DNA from: Pholiota molesta
Taxonomy: Eukaryota > Basidiomycota > Agaricomycetes > Agaricales > Strophariaceae
NCBI GenBank assembly: GCA_014925825.1
Contig: JACGCK010000145.1
Span: forward strand, 1 to 64,000
Direction: 5' to 3'
Length of the DNA stretch: 64,000 bases
Part shown: in pieces, positions 30,513-43,913 of the stretch
Position numbering within the stretch: the stretch's first letter is position 1
Layout: the number at the start of each line of letters is the position of its first letter
Translations under genes and position numbers: made by a program
Notes under the pieces: model-generated
Databases searched by the model: none
Told to the model about the DNA's origin: nothing
Seen by the model: the letters and a program-made list of their open reading frames with translations, nothing else

Positions 30513-32121
30513 CTAGATGGCGTATATATCTAGGAGACTACTACCCCCATCGAATGGTTCTGTCTACGGAAAAGAGAGTCAATAACAAACAGATTGAAGC
30601 CCATTCACAAAAAAACTGCGAGTAAAAGGAGCTGTGGACGTACATGTATACCAACTATTCCATCCGCATAGATCATATAGGCTGGATAGATCACCTTGAA
30701 CTCGAGCGTCGACATCACACATGGAAGATAGGTTTCCACGTCTTCAAGAAAGAAAGGGACGGTCTCTGCACAGATCACACTTGGCGGCAACAATGTCCCA
30801 GGTTTTCCTGTTGGAAATGAGGAAGGCATCTCTAGCGCACTCTTGGCGGACAACACAGCCGCGAGGGAGAAGTCAAAGATGTAGGGTGCGGAGCGGGGCG
30901 GCCATACCATCTGACCGTCTTCGCCGATGTTTTTCCCAGCAAAAACTACACGTTGGCCGTGAACGTACCTGCGCGTAGAGAACGTGAGGTGTGAGCATCG
31001 TGATTTATCATTTCTCTTTGCAAGGATGAAGAACACCGACCTTCTTAAGCCCCTACCGTACTGCGAAGAGGACGATTCGATCAGCCTCGTATTCGGGGGA
31101 CCCCAATCCGCCCACGGGATATCCAGGGGCGAGTGCATGGTGAGCGCTTGGCGCGCGTAGTTTAACAGCAGGTGCTGGTGTAGAAACAAGTTTACAAAGC
31201 GGTTTCCAAACCAGTTTTCTAGAAGATTCGCCGGGTCGTATTCCATTCTAAACATAAGTACGCGCTCGTCGTCATTTACCATGAATGGTAGGTGCGGGGC
31301 CGGATTAGCTTCAATGGGGCCAGCCACATTGTTCACCATGCGGAGTTTAGTGGGAGAGGCGGTGGGTGGGAAATGCAGTGTCGCGAGGTGAGTGGGGTCG
31401 GTCGTACTATCGGTCGTACTACCTTTGGGGAACTGTGCGAGCCTGTACAGCCGAATCGATCCGCAATCGGACGGACAAGTGATGAAGAAGTACGTGGGGT
31501 CAAGAAGCCCGAAGCTGTACCTCGAAGTTGGGAGAGAACGATCGAAAGAGGTAGCACTATCCTATGTAAATCGTTAATACGTTAACAGCGCCATAAATCT
31601 CGGCATACCAATAGTAGATCAGATGTTGTCCAATCCCATATTAGAACTCGCGTCCCCATTGGTGCATGTGTAAAATAAACTGCTAAGATGTTGTATGCGA
31701 TTTGGAAATTGGCTCTGTCGGAGCGGGTCCAGTAGTATGTATCGGATGTATCATTATAGACGGTGAACTGCAAGGGGCTTTGCCTTGCGCGTGGATGGAC
31801 AGTGTTCGTGGATAAGGAGTGAACGTGCACGCAGATGATCTGAGTGTCGACGGCCGATGGCAAGCTACGACAGATCAGGAATCGAGGGTACGGGAAAGAT
31901 GCAAGGGCTCACATTCTATCCTCCAGGAATACTAGCAGGTCCTGTGTCGGATCCATCGTCAACTCTTGAACAGTGATACCCGCCATCGGTAATTGGAGCC
32001 TACGATCCTCTGTGCTTCCGGCGGTAGGTAGCCATATAACTTCAAGGTGGTCTTTGTCTTTACTCATGGTAGCGAAAGCACCCCCGGCAAACTCCTCTGC
32101 GCGACCGCGCTGCGTTTTTCG
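30513..32121 (-). pseudogene. F-box gene F/I, 3' part (split by a transposon)
   Basis: The end of exon 2 (32121-31913), exon 3 (31864-31609), exon 4 (31561-31041), exon 5 (30968-30644) and exon 6 (30563-30513, ending LLDIYAI) are all open. Signatures include IWDWTTSDLLL, FGLLDPTYFFIT, GSIRLYRL, HLATLHFPP, ADWGPPNTR, FDFSLAAVLSAKS and FLEDVETYLPCV. The piece begins inside exon 2 at the 8-bp target duplication GTTTTTCG of the 6.16-kb element. The missing 5' part is at 38280-38609. Counting the duplication once, exons 1-6 sum to 1629 nt with an uninterrupted frame. The insertion is therefore the only visible lesion. Confidence 0.9.
32114..32121. repeat. 8-bp target site duplication, left
   Basis: GTTTTTCG, repeated at 38280-38287. 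One copy is needed to align the F-box exon 2 with copy H without a gap. Confidence 0.9.
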
Positions 32122-32152
32122 CGGATATCATTCATATGTAAACACCATATAA

Positions 32153-32236
32153 CACCCTGTACATTCGTGCCAAATACACCCTGTACATGCAGCTCATGTG
32201 CACACGGTACATCTCTGCCAAGTGCACCCAGGACAT
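32153..32236 (+). repeat. Left subterminal motif array, 4 x 12 bp every 24 bp
   Basis: CACCCTGTACAT at 32153 and 32177, CACACGGTACAT at 32201, CACCCAGGACAT at 32225. The starts are exactly 24 bp apart. They are probable transposase-binding sites. Confidence 0.9.
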
Positions 32237-32464
32237 TCACCGCCACCTCCCATACAGATATTGCAGGGGTTGGCTCAGCTTCTCTTTCTTTACTATATAA
32301 TATTGTGTACGGATATCTATGTTGCTGAAAGTGATTATTATGACTAGAATACACTTATAAATGTTTAAACTGGGTAGATATAGTCCCAGATGAGCTGTGC
32401 ATGCCCAACTACTGGGTAGATGACCCCCGACACAGGCGGCAGTGGCTATGCGGCCGCGCAAGGG

Positions 32465-33595
32465 ATTCAGATCCAGTGGAATTACACTGGATTGGGTCGC
32501 GCGGGACTGAATATGCGGCCGCGCAAGGGATCCAGTGCAATTCTACTGGATGAACCCTGCGCGATGGATCCAGTGGAATTTCACTGGATGGGCCCCACGC
32601 AAGGGATCCAGTGGAATACCACTGGATGAGCCCCGTGCGAGGAATGCAGTGGTAATCTACTGGATGAGCACCCGCGAGGGAGTTCGGCCGCGCGCGAGGG
32701 AATACCACTGGATGGGTCCCCGCGCGGTACATCCCCTCGCGCGCGGCACGAGCCCCAAGGGGCTCATCCAGTGGTATTCCACTGGATCCGTCGCGCGCGG
32801 CGCATCCAGTACGCGTGGCGCATCCAGTACGCGCGGCGCATCCAGTAGAATACCACTGGATCCCTCGTGCGGGGCTCATCCAGTGAAATTCCACTGGATC
32901 TGTCGCGCGGGGCCCATCCAGTAGAATACCACTGGATCCCTCGCGCGGGGCTCATCCAGTGAAATTCCACTGGATCCATCGCGCATGTGTGAAGAATACC
33001 AAATACAGTGAAATCTCACCGGATGTGTGCCACATGAGCAATCCAGTGGATTTTCACTGGATTGGCGCCGCACGAGCAATCTAGTGGATTTTCACTGAAT
33101 TGGTGCCATACGAGCAATCCAGTGGAAATCCACCGGAACAATGCTGCACGCGCAATTCCAGTGAATATTCACTGGAATAGCACCCCATATACCTAGGGCA
33201 ATGCGGCGCATGCGCTCAGTGTAGCGTGTACGCGTGCGTGCAGCAATGCGGTACGCGTGCTGGTGGGCGGTTATTTGCAGCGCGTGCGCTCGCATTGCAT
33301 GTGAATTAAATGACTCACATAGCGCCGTGCAAGCAATCCAGTGGATATGCACTGGAATGGCGCCGCGCGAGCGATCCAGTGAGTATCCACTGGATTGCTC
33401 ACGCGGCACCGATCCAGTGAATTTGCACTGGATGTGTACAGAACACCAAATTCAGTGAAATTTCACCGGATGTGTGCCGCGCGGGCGATCCAGTGAATTT
33501 ACACTGGATGTGCGCCACGCGAGCAATCCAGTGCATTTACACTGGATATGCGCGGGACACTGAATCCAGTGAAATAACACTGGATTTTCCGCCGG
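32465..33595. repeat. Array of short palindromes, left
   Basis: About 25 units, each a 20-24-bp palindrome of the form ATCCAGTG-N(6-8)-CACTGGAT, are separated by GC-rich spacers of about 14-20 bp (GCGCGCGGC-like). A non-palindromic gap lies at about 33190-33320. Long open frames across it (HWMSPARGIQWYSTG-like) are only translations of the repeat. Confidence 0.9.
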
Positions 33596-34795
33596 CGCTG
33601 TTATTTCCACTTGGCATCAACATGATATCCCACCGCGGGATATTGCCCAAATAGGGTGCACCGCGGGCGCTCCCCGACTGATGCGCACATGCGCATCCGT
33701 CCTCCTGCCTGTTGGCACAGAGAATGGGCTCCAGCTCAGCCCAATTACCTTCGTTCCTTTCGCATTTTTGCACATAGATAGGCATATTATATAGGAGTAT
33801 TAATGTATAGATATTTAACGAATACATATCAGGTTATCTATCAAAAGAGGTGTTTTTTATGGCAGGGGAGGGGGAGTAGAGGAAGGTATTTGCCTTAAAC
33901 ACATGGGGACTCTTATATAAAGGTACATATAGTATCTATGCTATTATAAGTGATAATGTACTGAGCTATAGCTCTCCAGGAATTAATAGAAGTGACCCAT
34001 GGGGAGATCTAGAGGGAGGGTGTCATAGGGTATGAAAGTGACATGTTCCAATGCTCTTATTATCAATTCAATTACTTTACATGGTGTATTATACCTATGT
34101 AGCTTAATATATGCAGCCAGAGGTGCCATAGATACAGTTAATCCACTCCTATTGACTTATCTACCTATGGATACATTGGCCTATATCTCAGCACCAGACA
34201 GAGATATCTTTCTAATGTCTTTGGATTAAGGCTCTCCCTGGCTCCACCTATCTATTAATATCGATAAAATATACCTAAAATGGTTGGAACATATAGACAA
34301 AGGCCCCCAATGAGGCCTAATATCCTGATACATATACATAGCCATATATAGCATGTATAGATTTATTTCTGTGGATATAACAATGTAGAAAAATACTATA
34401 TAGCACCTACATTAATTCAACCGAGCAATACTAGTATTTCTCTGCTTGAAAAGGGTCATGAGGAGGTGAAACATGCCAAGGATGTATAAAATGCGTATTC
34501 AGCCTATAGAACTACCAATAAGTGCTCCACAATTCTGTAACGCTAAGACGTGATAGCCCTAATAAATACCTACAAAACGAGCTACTTTAGAGGACGATTG
34601 AATGTGTTAGTGGAAACATAGAAGCTATTAAGTTGTGTGTTTGCGACCAGAGTTTGCGACCCATTTAGTATGCGACCGTGTGTGACCACAAAAAACGTAA
34701 AATGTCTGTAAATTTACAACTATATATTCTAAAATTCTGAAATTTCTGCGCTGGGTAGCTCTAATAGATATCTACAAAACGAGATATGCCGGAAG
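33520..34795. repeat. Giant palindrome, left arm
   Basis: About 1276 bp whose reverse complement is at 34960-36235, symmetric about 34877.5. I saw one mismatch (34599 against 35156) in the parts I compared directly. Both arms encode identical 96- and 65-residue open frames, so identity is very high. Confidence 0.9.
34032..34229 (+). other. 65-residue open frame in the palindrome arm (mirror at 35526-35723)
   Basis: This frame is unidentified and present in each arm by symmetry. It has a hydrophobic first half and no recognised motif. A second shared frame (96 residues) lies at 33537-33827 (-) and 35928-36218 (+). Neither is called a gene: both lack support beyond duplication. Confidence 0.25.
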
Positions 34796-34959
34796 AAGAT
34801 CGAGTCAGAGGTTCAGATGATATGAAGAAAATATTTTGATGAACATCATTTGAACATGATCCAAACATAGTTTAATAATTGTATCACGAGTAGTCGTGAT
34901 GTATTTCGATGTTCTGAACAATGTTTCCAGCATATATTTCTATTCGCTGCTCCGATTAC
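34796..34959. other. Palindrome loop
   Basis: The unpaired centre, about 164 bp, AT-rich. It contains its own small hairpin ATCACGAGTAGTCGTGAT (34883-34900). Confidence 0.85.
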
Positions 34960-36235
34960 CTTCCGGCATATCTCGTTTTGTAGATATCTATTAGAGCTAC
35001 CCAGCGCAGAAATTTCAGAATTTTAGAATATATAGTTGTAAATTTACAGACATTTTACGTTTTTTGTGGTCACACACGGTCGCATACTAAATGGGTCGCA
35101 AACTCTGGTCGCAAACACACAACTTAATAGCTTCTATGTTTCCACTAACACATTCGATCGTCCTCTAAAGTAGCTCGTTTTGTAGGTATTTATTAGGGCT
35201 ATCACGTCTTAGCGTTACAGAATTGTGGAGCACTTATTGGTAGTTCTATAGGCTGAATACGCATTTTATACATCCTTGGCATGTTTCACCTCCTCATGAC
35301 CCTTTTCAAGCAGAGAAATACTAGTATTGCTCGGTTGAATTAATGTAGGTGCTATATAGTATTTTTCTACATTGTTATATCCACAGAAATAAATCTATAC
35401 ATGCTATATATGGCTATGTATATGTATCAGGATATTAGGCCTCATTGGGGGCCTTTGTCTATATGTTCCAACCATTTTAGGTATATTTTATCGATATTAA
35501 TAGATAGGTGGAGCCAGGGAGAGCCTTAATCCAAAGACATTAGAAAGATATCTCTGTCTGGTGCTGAGATATAGGCCAATGTATCCATAGGTAGATAAGT
35601 CAATAGGAGTGGATTAACTGTATCTATGGCACCTCTGGCTGCATATATTAAGCTACATAGGTATAATACACCATGTAAAGTAATTGAATTGATAATAAGA
35701 GCATTGGAACATGTCACTTTCATACCCTATGACACCCTCCCTCTAGATCTCCCCATGGGTCACTTCTATTAATTCCTGGAGAGCTATAGCTCAGTACATT
35801 ATCACTTATAATAGCATAGATACTATATGTACCTTTATATAAGAGTCCCCATGTGTTTAAGGCAAATACCTTCCTCTACTCCCCCTCCCCTGCCATAAAA
35901 AACACCTCTTTTGATAGATAACCTGATATGTATTCGTTAAATATCTATACATTAATACTCCTATATAATATGCCTATCTATGTGCAAAAATGCGAAAGGA
36001 ACGAAGGTAATTGGGCTGAGCTGGAGCCCATTCTCTGTGCCAACAGGCAGGAGGACGGATGCGCATGTGCGCATCAGTCGGGGAGCGCCCGCGGTGCACC
36101 CTATTTGGGCAATATCCCGCGGTGGGATATCATGTTGATGCCAAGTGGAAATAACAGCGCCGGCGGAAAATCCAGTGTTATTTCACTGGATTCAGTGTCC
36201 CGCGCATATCCAGTGTAAATGCACTGGATTGCTCG
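34960..36235. repeat. Giant palindrome, right arm
   Basis: Reverse complement of 33520-34795. Outside 36235 the two sides remain related but differ in the number of short-palindrome units. Confidence 0.9.
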
Positions 36236-37560
36236 TGCAGCGCACATCCAGTGTAAATTCACTGGATTGCTCGCGCAGCGCACATCCAGTGTAAATTCAC
36301 TGGATTGCTCGCGTGGCGCACATCCAGTGTAAATTCACTGGATTGCTCGCGCGGCGCACATCCAGTGTAAATTCACTGGATTGCTCGCGTGGCGCACATC
36401 CAGTGTAAATTCACTGGATTGCTCGCGCGGCGCACATCCAGTGTAGATTCACTGGATCGCCCGCGCGGCACACATCCGGTGAAATTTCACTGGATTGCTC
36501 GCGCGGCGCACATCCAGTGTAAATTCACTGGATTGCTCGCGCGGCGCACATCCAGTGTAGATTCACTGGATTGCCCGCGCGGCACACATCCAGTGAAATT
36601 TCACTGGATCGCTCACGCGGCGCCGTGCAAGTTATTTGATAATTCATATGGCACATGACCGCACACGCTGCATAGTCCCCGCCAGCGCACGCACTGCACT
36701 GTCACACGCGCGTGTACGCGCCGTATTGCCCTACGTCCGCGTACACGCTGCAACCCAGCGGATGTTCACTGCAATGGCACTCGCGCTGGCGTGGGACAAT
36801 GCGGCGCGTGCCCTCGCGTGGGGTCGTGCAGCACGTACGCGTGTGCGAGAATGCGGCGCATGCGCTTGCGTGACAAAGGAACCCAATAAGTGGAATGCAG
36901 GTGCGCAAGCGATCTAGTGGATATTCATTAGATCAGTGCCGCGCAAGCAATCCAGTGAATACTCACTGGAATGACTCAGCACAAGCGATCCAGTGGATAT
37001 TCACTGGATCGGTGCCGCGTGAGCAATCCAGTGAATGTTCACTGGATTGGTGCTGCGCGAGCAATCCAGTGAATGTTCACCGGATCAACGCCGCGCAACC
37101 TAGCCTGTGGACATATATCTTCCTGGACCGCTCGCGCGGTACTATGCCAGTTATTTTATGCATATGTCATGCGAGCGGATGCGCCGTATTGTCGGACGCC
37201 AGCGCACACGCCGCGTTGCCCCACGCACGCGGGCGCCATTCCAGTGGATATCCACAGGATCGCTCGCACGGCACCGATCCAGTGAATATCCACTGGATCG
37301 CTCGCGCGGCACAGATCCAGTGAATATACACTGGATTGCTCACGGGGCACCATTCCAGTGGATTTCCACTGGATTCTTCGCGCCAGTGCATGCCACTGCA
37401 CGCGCCGCATTGTCTCACGCACGCGGGCGTCATTCCAGTGGACATTCACTGGATCGCTCTCGCGGCATAGATCCAGTGAATATACACTGCATTGCTCGCG
37501 CGGCACCATTACAGTGGATTTCCACTGGATTCTTCACGCGGCTGTGTTTCAGTGGATTTT
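36165..37560. repeat. Array of short palindromes, right, with a 38-bp minisatellite
   Basis: 36190-36612 is a regular tandem array with a 38-bp period of about eleven units (CATCCAGTGTAAATTCACTG plus a GCTCGCGCGGCGCA spacer). 36660-36900 is non-repetitive. 36905-37560 holds further, more diverged palindromes. The nearest units match the left array, so the minisatellite looks like a local expansion of one side. Confidence 0.9.
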
Positions 37561-37754
37561 GCATAGATAGCAAATAGCATGGGCTCCGGAAGCTCGCCAT
37601 ATGGGAGAATAACTGACTGTAACATAATTTACTAATATACTTGACATATGTATGTACCTAACTGTATATTCAATTGCAAGCCGGCGCCGCTCAGAATGTC
37701 CCTATGTGATGTCTAATAACTCCTTATCAACCTAACCTTGGACTGGAATATTAT

Positions 37755-38129
37755 AGGACCCCTGAAAATGCACCAAAATGTCTGATCCGAGCTATTTTGA
37801 GGCATTCTGAGCAAAGATGGCATGCTGGTGGATGACTTTGGTATGAAATCGTGTTGCACCCAGCGGAGAAGATGGGCAGATACATCGAAAGAAGCCGTAG
37901 GCGCAATGTTGGAGAAAAATACCCAGAAATGCGCTCTCCAAGGGCCAATCTATGGTCCGGATAAAAATTGCATTTTTGGGAATGTTTGGATAGAAATTGA
38001 CCTTTTTCGCAAGAATTTTTTTTCGAAAAAGGTTCCCAATCATCCAAACGATGCACAGATAAACTCGAGAATCGTGTGAATTTTTTCACCACCAAGGATC
38101 AGACACTTTGGTGAACTTTCAGGGGTCCT
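37755..38129. mobile_element. 375-bp MITE with 8-bp target duplication
   Basis: The terminal inverted repeats are about 34 bp, starting AGGACCCCTGAAA and ending TTTCAGGGGTCCT, with four mismatches. The flanking 8-bp direct repeat is AATATTAT (37747-37754 and 38130-38137). This fits a hAT-type MITE, nested in the 6.16-kb element. Confidence 0.9.
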
Positions 38130-38164
38130 AATATTATTGCAGGCGTGGTGAGCTTCACGTGACT

Positions 38165-38248
38165 ATGTTCCTGGCGCTGTTGTGTGAGATGTACCGGGCG
38201 AGTCTTGGGGAAATGTACAGGGTGAGCTTGGGTGGTATGTCCCGTGCG
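38165..38248 (-). repeat. Right subterminal motif array, 4 x 12 bp every 24 bp
   Basis: ATGTTCCTGGCG at 38165, ATGTACCGGGCG at 38189, ATGTACAGGGTG at 38213 and ATGTCCCGTGCG at 38237 are the reverse complements of the left motif. Spacing is exactly 24 bp and the last motif ends 31 bp from the element end, mirroring the left side. Confidence 0.9.
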
Positions 38249-38279
38249 TTATAACATTATTTATGTTGCACTATACCCC

Positions 38280-38287
38280 GTTTTTCG
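38280..38287. repeat. 8-bp target site duplication, right
   Basis: GTTTTTCG, matching 32114-32121. Confidence 0.9.
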
Positions 38288-42147: not shown

Positions 42148-43913
42148 ATGCACACCGACGACCCCCTCCGCATACAGCATATACGTCAGATAGCGCTGCG
42201 CCACGGCCAGCGGCGCCACCACGCACGGGAGGCGCGTCTCCACGTCGGCGCGGAAGAATGGGCTGGTCCGGGCGCGCACCCTGCTCGGCGGCACCAGCGT
42301 CCCCGTTTCCCTCCTGCCAACGGGACGACACGGGCGCGAGGACGGCACGGGCGGGATGCGGTTGGCGCACAACACGGCCGCGTGCGAGAAATCGAAGATG
42401 TAGGCCGCGGCGCGGGGCGACCATATCCTCTGCCCGTCCTCGCTGATGTTCCGCCCCGGAAAGACCACACGCTGGCCGTGGACATACCTGCACGCTCATC
42501 ATTAATTCCATTTTTCAAGCACGCGCAAAAGAACAGAACGGACACCGACCTCTTCAAGTGCGTCGCAAACTGGTGCGACGTCGCCTCCATGAACCGCGTG
42601 TTCCGCGGGCCCCAAGCGCGCCACGCAACATCCGCAGGGCCAGGCACATGCGCCGTGCGCGGCGCGCATACGCCGACAGCACGCGCTGGTGCACGAACAG
42701 GTTGAACGCGCAGATCCCCGCCCACCCGGCGCGCGCCCCGTCGTCCCCGTACACCACCCGCACCACGTGCACGCGGTCCGCGTCGCGCACCATGAACGGC
42801 ACGCGCGGGGGCGGCCGCGCTTCGACGGCGCCCGCCGCGTGCGTCGCCGCGCGGATGTGGGTGTCGCGGCGGTCGGCGGGAGTGGAGGGTCGCGCGGTGG
42901 ACGGGGCAAGCGGGCGTTCGGGGGCCGGGACGAGGGTGTACAGCCGGATCGAGCCAGAGGCGGACGGCAGGTGAGGAAGAAGGACGTGGGGTCGAGAAGC
43001 CCGAAGCCGTACCGCGAAGTCGGGAGGGAATCGTTGAATGAGATCGCGGTATCCTGTAGTAGATCATGAATATGTTGATAGTACCACGGAGTTCGGCGTA
43101 CCAATAACAGATCCGACGTAGTCCAGTCCCATATTAAAACGCGCGTGCCCTCGGGTGCATCGCGAAAGTAGACTGCCAAGATGTTGTATGCGATTTGGAA
43201 AGTGGCTCTGTGGAAACTGTTCCAGTACTGCTCTGAACGACGGTGAACTGCAAGGGGCTTTGCCGCGCTCGCGGATGGTCAGTGTTCGTCGCCAAGGAGC
43301 GCACATGAACGCAGATGGTATCAGTATCGATGGTGGACAGCAAGCTAGGACACATCAGGAATCACGGCTATCCAAAAGACGACACCCAAGCACGCACCTC
43401 CTGTTCTCTAGGAACACCAGCAAGTCCTGCGTCGGATCCATCGTAAACTCGCGCGCAGCGACGTCGACGAAGCGGACCTGGAGCCTGCGGTCCTCCACGT
43501 CTCCGGCGCGGCAGCCACACAACTTCCAGGCGGTGTTCGACATGCTCGCCCACGCGCCCCCGACGAGCTCCGCCCTGCTCCCGTGGTACGTCTCCCGCGT
43601 CAGCGGTTCCTCCCATCGAGCGCCCGCCACGCCGCCGCCGCCGCGCGATCGCCGCGAGCAGGTCCGCGTGGCCGGTGGGCGGCCGCCCCGCTCGAGGCCG
43701 TCCAGGTGCAGCTGCACCGCACACACCAATACGGGAGTGCAGAGCACGGTGTCGCGGAGGGATCTGCATGTCTGCGGGGGGTCCGTCGGGCTTAGCTGGT
43801 TCCCCGATGTTGCAAGCAGCAAGATCGGATGCGCACCATTGCGCAGCGCGCGAGCGACACCACGTCGAGGCGGGACAGGATCTCGATTGCAGCTCCTGTG
43901 GTAGGTTGGCCAG
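42148..43913 (-). pseudogene. F-box family copy G, degenerate and GC-rich
   Basis: The five main exons are traceable: F-box 43913-about 43820, exon 2 about 43770-43400, exon 3 about 43355-43102, exon 4 about 43055-42550, exon 5 42487-42148. The start codon is replaced by CTG (LANLPQELQ). A base is missing in the F-box after LQ. Exons 2 and 3 carry further frameshifts (VCAVQLHLDGL is in one frame, LLAAIARRRRR in another). Exon 5 is open (FDFSHAAVLCANR, FFRADVETRLPCV). GC content is much higher than in the other copies, which produces several long antisense frames. The relative in the window is F/I. Confidence 0.75.

Follow-up and report, generated by a model that had tools for sequence, protein, structure and literature searches.

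The window analysed here, a 64,000-nucleotide stretch of the Pholiota molesta contig JACGCK010000145.1 (C52 below), carries a mobile element of 6,158 bp at positions 32122-38279, flanked on both sides by exact 8-bp copies of GTTTTTCG (32114-32121 and 38280-38287). An initial annotation made from the sequence had described an inserted element with an 8-bp target site duplication (TSD), and both the duplication and empty sites elsewhere in the genome bear this out. A 600-bp query, in which the two flanks were joined through one copy of the duplication, matched end to end at C157 (91%), C89 (90%) and C86 (89%); a single GTTTTGCG is present at the junction of each of these three loci, in contrast to the two copies of GTTTTTCG that border the element in the window. 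Weaker paralogues also match the query, one of them inside the window at 43303-43903 (68%). Since the insertion site belongs to a paralogous family, the three loci are empty paralogues, or possibly alleles.

Organization of the element

The left terminus (32122-32236, plus strand) begins with CGGATATC and carries four 12-bp motifs at 32153, 32177, 32201 and 32225; the right terminus (38165-38279, minus strand) ends in GCACTATACCCC and carries four in mirror orientation at 38165, 38189, 38213 and 38237. Counted from either end, the motif trains start at positions 32, 56, 80 and 104, in the 24-bp phase that the initial annotation had reported. With 4, 0, 2 and 4 mismatches to CACCCTGTACAT, against 0, 0, 2 and 2 on the left, the right copies are nonetheless more degenerate than that annotation implied. 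The summed mismatches are 4 (left) and 10 (right), versus a background minimum of 22 among 115,032 window positions outside the element on both strands. The terminal inverted repeat is very poor, with 21 of 40 terminal positions matching.

Inside the termini are two arrays of a 22-bp palindrome, ATCCAGTG-N6-CACTGGAT, with 22 copies, mostly 38 bp apart, on the left (32471-33585) and 24 on the right (36170-37530). Allowing up to 3 mismatches in the 16 fixed bases, we counted 46 copies inside the element and 0 in the 57.8 kb of window flanks, in agreement with the two short-palindrome arrays first proposed. A MITE-like insert (MITE, miniature inverted-repeat transposable element) with inverted ends TAGGACCCCTGAAA and approximate borders at about 37748-38138 sits within, and lengthens, the right end of the element, and is absent from the copy on C1.

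The giant central palindrome seen in the initial annotation is formed by a left arm at 33449-34847 (plus strand, with an AT-rich core from about 33604) and a right arm at 34908-36306 (minus strand, core to about 36151), separated by a 60-nt spacer (34848-34907). Inverted-arm alignment gives 34 mismatches in 1,399 positions, only one of which lies among the 1,276 positions of 33520-34795, the other 33 being confined to the outer 71 and inner 52 bp; across 972 bp of the core the arms are 100% identical. As also claimed from the outset, the element encodes no recognisable gene: its longest stop-to-stop frame has 180 aa, and its contig is missing from the hits when the genome is searched with KDZ and CxC4 (its own frames were not run against Pfam). 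A related 219-aa frame in the C1 copy has no Pfam match.

Genomic copies and gene-carrying relatives

The search for further copies that the initial annotation had suggested found 15 matches to the left end in the 65.6-Mb genome, and 8 matches each to right ends of A type (some of them partial) and B type. Fourteen of the 15 left ends have a partner right end, the two being bordered by an exact 8-bp TSD; in the fifteenth case, on C40, the element runs off the contig. Besides the window copy on C52, the duplications are GGGGCTCG (C1), GAGAATAC (C36), GGCATAAG (C615), TGTCCCAC (C567), GTTACTGC (C298), ACGAAGAA (C591), TCATGAAG (C58), ACATTCTC (C43), CCATTCAT (C608), TGATGGTC (C70), CTTTGACC (C27), CTGGCAGG (C96) and CAATGTCC (C124, whose right end lies on contig C111), and this set of 14 shows no conspicuous target preference. 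The 12 gene-less copies that were read have the central palindrome in place of genes, and form a subfamily A (window, C1, C36, C615 and C27) and a subfamily B (seven copies), which are 75-83% alike in aligned blocks. The 11.5-kb C27 copy was considered and rejected as an autonomous member: its extra DNA includes a frame resembling gag (DUF4100 at 22.3 bits, where the cut-off is 27.9), and the corresponding stretch of C94 has an aspartyl protease match as well.

The same termini are found on two larger elements, C96 (18.5 kb) and C124/C111, which encode the KDZ-associated CxC4 cluster (PF18717; E 8.5e-47 in C96 and 9.5e-47 in C124). The link between C124 and C111 is based on the duplication they have in common and on a nested insertion truncated where the contigs end. 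C124, the one of the two that was read through, also has a KDZ piece, which PF18758 matches weakly (E 5.7e-4, 20.1 bits, under the 26.6 cut-off); C96 shares the ends and the TSD and has CxC4. The same model scores 20-25 bits in five of six full-length CxC4 relatives, and an hhalign comparison with canonical KDZ transposases, with only three sequences on the KDZ side, gave a probability of 9% and an E of 0.0035 with motifs in register. The 8-bp TSD found for 14 of the 15 left ends is a KDZ feature. The ends, the TSDs and the encoding partners support the placement of the window element as a gene-less derivative in a CxC4-bearing KDZ branch.

C124 and C96 have a second gene in common, a 541-aa open frame (L039 73-1695; C124:20073-21695), which the initial annotation had not foreseen. 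It has no Pfam match and no database relative at E <= 0.001 (7,998 scored candidates), and a Foldseek comparison with the PDB lists nothing at E <= 0.001; its product is a candidate accessory transposition protein.

The 22-bp palindrome occurs 43-48 times in the five A members, 33-35 times in the seven B loci, 81 times in C124 and 33 times in the fetched part of C96, with 17 copies in the C94 stretch and 0 in the C111 stretch and in the three foldback elements described below. Its retention in gene-carrying and gene-less members alike suggests a role in cis, probably binding. Given their phasing, their symmetry and their presence in both kinds of member, the subterminal motifs and the arrays are most likely protein-binding sites.

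The palindrome core and its homogenisation

A query with the core (33604-34900) matched at 36 loci (94 rows), at 31 of which it forms facing pairs: the 12 A and B elements, 8 loci at about 75% identity and 11 of greater divergence (near 65% in some cases). The remaining five (C49, C28, C467, C190 and C223) are one-armed, irregular or very short, and no match is listed for C96, C124, C333:1020-1029k or C152. This wider distribution of the core was also unforeseen. The 8 loci at about 75% are flanked by foldback ends on both sides. The three that were read, the foldbacks F411, F1 and F333, are end-to-end palindromes of 2,482-2,522 bp with ends CACCTG...CAGGTG and exact 8-bp TSDs (CTCCCCCG, CACATCAA and ATCAAATC in this set), and the core of the window element is 74-76% identical to theirs. 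One foldback end type (L053) is also present in inverted orientation on both sides of strong KDZ matches, with 8.4 kb between the two ends at C333 and 8.2 kb at C152. The ends of F1 correspond to those of KDZ-encoding elements of a different kind. The other end type (L052) was found at three foldback loci and three partial places. Because the L053 ends flank strong KDZ matches, gene-less elements connected with two KDZ kinds carry the core: one kind has CxC4 and a weak KDZ score, and the other scores strongly for KDZ, its scanned frames giving no CxC4 match. The two kinds appear to be separate lineages. At C61:38537-44555 a KDZ match and a diverged copy of the core are about 3.3 kb apart, possibly a third KDZ lineage carrying it.

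Derivation of the palindrome from the autonomous element was considered and rejected, since blastn against C124 and the fetched half of C96 gave no more than a 49-bp match, which lies in C96. With a profile built from 11 arms, the matches were 128 bp of the palindrome centre in C223 (L059, C223:994540-994710; E 6.7e-18), between the CxC4 and second-gene homologues of that contig, and 51 bp in C96 (E 7e-5), versus E 6.3 and 9.9 for reversed-sequence controls. These matches are a lead to the source of the palindrome, not an origin.

Arm-to-arm core identity is 100.0% in the window element, 99.9% in C27 and F1, 99.6% in F333 and 98.2% in F411, and in a tree the two arms of each of these five are sisters, with support from 0.63 (F1) to 1.0 (F411) and an identical pair for the window. 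The window element differs from its nearest sisters by 1.5-2.2% (C27 is 97.8-97.9% identical to it). Across 1,276 positions its arms differ once, whereas the divergence between sister elements is about 2%: arms that are intact are being homogenised, and arm-to-arm gene conversion or copying through a hairpin is the most likely mechanism. The arms of subfamily B are 88-95% alike, and left arms cluster with left arms except in C70, whose left arm falls among right arms. C1, C36 and C615 lack the same part of the left arm. In 396 outer bases, the left arm of each copy differs from its right arm at 5, 4 and 2 positions, and from the closest left arm of another copy at 1, 3 and 1, small counts in which no clear homogenisation is seen.

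Coding potential of the core was considered and rejected, since substitutions had no period of three in four pairwise comparisons. An invariant run of 25 bp in the core, versus a mean of 12 and a maximum of 26 in 2,000 shuffles, is suggestive only. An Rfam search gave 16 matches, all to microRNA models and all below the gathering score.

Proposed model and alternatives

Taken as a whole, these observations are very probably best explained by a KDZ family that is chimeric, foldback-like and non-autonomous, and in which a CxC4-KDZ-type transposase and a second protein are encoded by the members that carry genes. Gene-less copies keep what would be the cis-acting sequences (the terminal bases, the subterminal motifs in their 24-bp phase and the 22-bp palindrome arrays, the latter two most likely serving as protein-binding sites) and would be moved in trans by the CxC4-KDZ transposase, producing the 8-bp TSDs; for this step we have the pairing of ends, the TSDs and the encoding relatives. 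The long palindrome occupies the place of the genes. Because its core is shared with foldbacks whose ends match another KDZ-encoding kind, the family is chimeric by sequence, presumably through a joining event. Gene conversion or hairpin copying would then keep the arms nearly identical in copies with two intact arms.

An 8-bp TSD and subterminal repeats are also features of hAT elements, and the initial annotation had considered mobilisation by either KDZ or hAT. Phased subterminal motifs and an 8-bp TSD would suit a hAT element, and subterminal repeats are important for the hAT-derived Kat1 (PMC4763223). However, the encoding relative that the annotation had anticipated carries CxC4 in both cases (C96 and C124), together with the weakly scoring KDZ piece in C124, and 20 frames of relatives scanned against Pfam matched no hAT model, so that the KDZ half of the proposal is supported and a hAT element is very improbable. 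It is also very improbable that the perfect palindrome is an assembly artefact. Complete identity of the window arms over 972 bp would be expected of one, but the 33 differences in their outer and inner margins, the facing pairs at 31 loci, the 88-95% similarity of the arms in the seven B copies and the separate version in the sister C27, 99.9% identical within and 97.8-97.9% to the window, all argue against it.

A more serious alternative, to which we give somewhat less than an even chance, is that the palindrome is a passive passenger without function: a foldback would have inserted in the ancestor of A and B, lost its tips and then multiplied along with the host element. The 74-76% identity of the core to F411, F1 and F333 and the TSDs that these foldbacks possess are in its favour, and gene conversion between inverted repeats requires no selection. 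Against it, neither foldback tips (CACCTG) nor a second TSD are seen by eye at the core borders (33604/36151), and the window palindrome extends into the arrays (33449-33603). It is also conceivable, if rather unlikely, that gene-less elements of at least two KDZ lineages have recruited the core as a transferable module, and that it is actively kept near-perfect since its hairpin matters, either as a source of double-stranded RNA that shapes how the host silences KDZ elements or, as DNA, in element replication or repair; the 22-bp arrays would then be a separate cis binding platform for the second protein. Long palindromes are expected to be unstable, yet at 31 loci facing pairs of a related core have persisted, with sequence similarity as low as about 65% among some of them.

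Among known KDZ elements, 8-bp TSDs are described for Zisupton, Dileera and KDZ1, and 4-8 bp for KDZ2 and KDZ3 (PMC12730594, PMC12810828); the first of these papers gives 8 bp for Zisupton and a Dileera family, and 7 bp for two Kyakuja families, and states that terminal inverted repeats (TIRs) are absent from two Kyakuja families. The Pholiota family resembles this superfamily (Zisupton, Dileera, Kyakuja and Cryptococcus KDZ1-3) in its 8-bp TSDs and in the KDZ-type piece and cysteine cluster of its gene-carrying relatives. In contrast, it has CxC4 rather than CxC1, its TIRs are very poor where those of Cryptococcus KDZ1-3 measure 139-241 bp (PMC12810828), and it adds the unmatched second gene, the 22-bp palindrome arrays and the gene-less palindromic derivatives. 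In Marasmius oreades, KDZ and Plavaka make up about half of the DNA elements and are called understudied (PMC8290104).

By analogy, the closest architecture is that of Galileo, a P superfamily element of Drosophila. Its foldback copies are gene-less with long inverted repeats, tandem repeats have been proposed as secondary transposase-binding sites, internal sequence has been recruited as inverted duplicates, and chimeras carry an internal region from another subfamily (PMC3573991). The Pholiota elements share the lack of genes, the long inverted repeats, the internal repeats and the chimerism with a foreign internal region. Galileo, however, has a 7-bp TSD, whereas the Pholiota palindrome is internal, short of the ends, with its core in elements of two KDZ kinds. 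The foldbacks F411, F1 and F333 of the same genome share the palindromic core and 8-bp TSDs with the window element but, unlike it, are palindromic end to end (about 2.5 kb), have CACCTG...CAGGTG ends and lack 22-bp arrays. Long inverted repeats make up 2 x 1,399 of the 6,158 bp of the window element; since the arms cover 33449-36306 only and the ends are not inverted copies, one defining feature of a foldback element is absent and we do not call it one. In the literature surveyed by title and abstract opening, we found no description of gene-less KDZ derivatives with foldback architecture.

With exact ends, empty sites, two subfamilies and a probable source of transposase all available, the family makes trans-mobilisation, binding to the 12-bp and 22-bp motifs and maintenance of the long palindrome directly testable.

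Three further observations concern the surroundings of these elements. The DNA flanking the insertion site has many paralogues on C52, C157, C89 and C86; in the window, 30605-31339 for example encodes a lineage-specific protein without a Pfam match, whose named relatives are Pholiota molesta proteins. C27:33446-44000 and C94:68462-79037 are 99.3% identical over 10.6 kb, with the same element right end and flank, and represent uncollapsed alleles or a duplication. The nested element that interrupts the right end of the C124 element has ends TGGGGAGGGGCAAC and apparently a 7-bp duplication, CTGTGTG, and spans the contig break (C124:1-1606 and C111:75294-81886; L037, L042).

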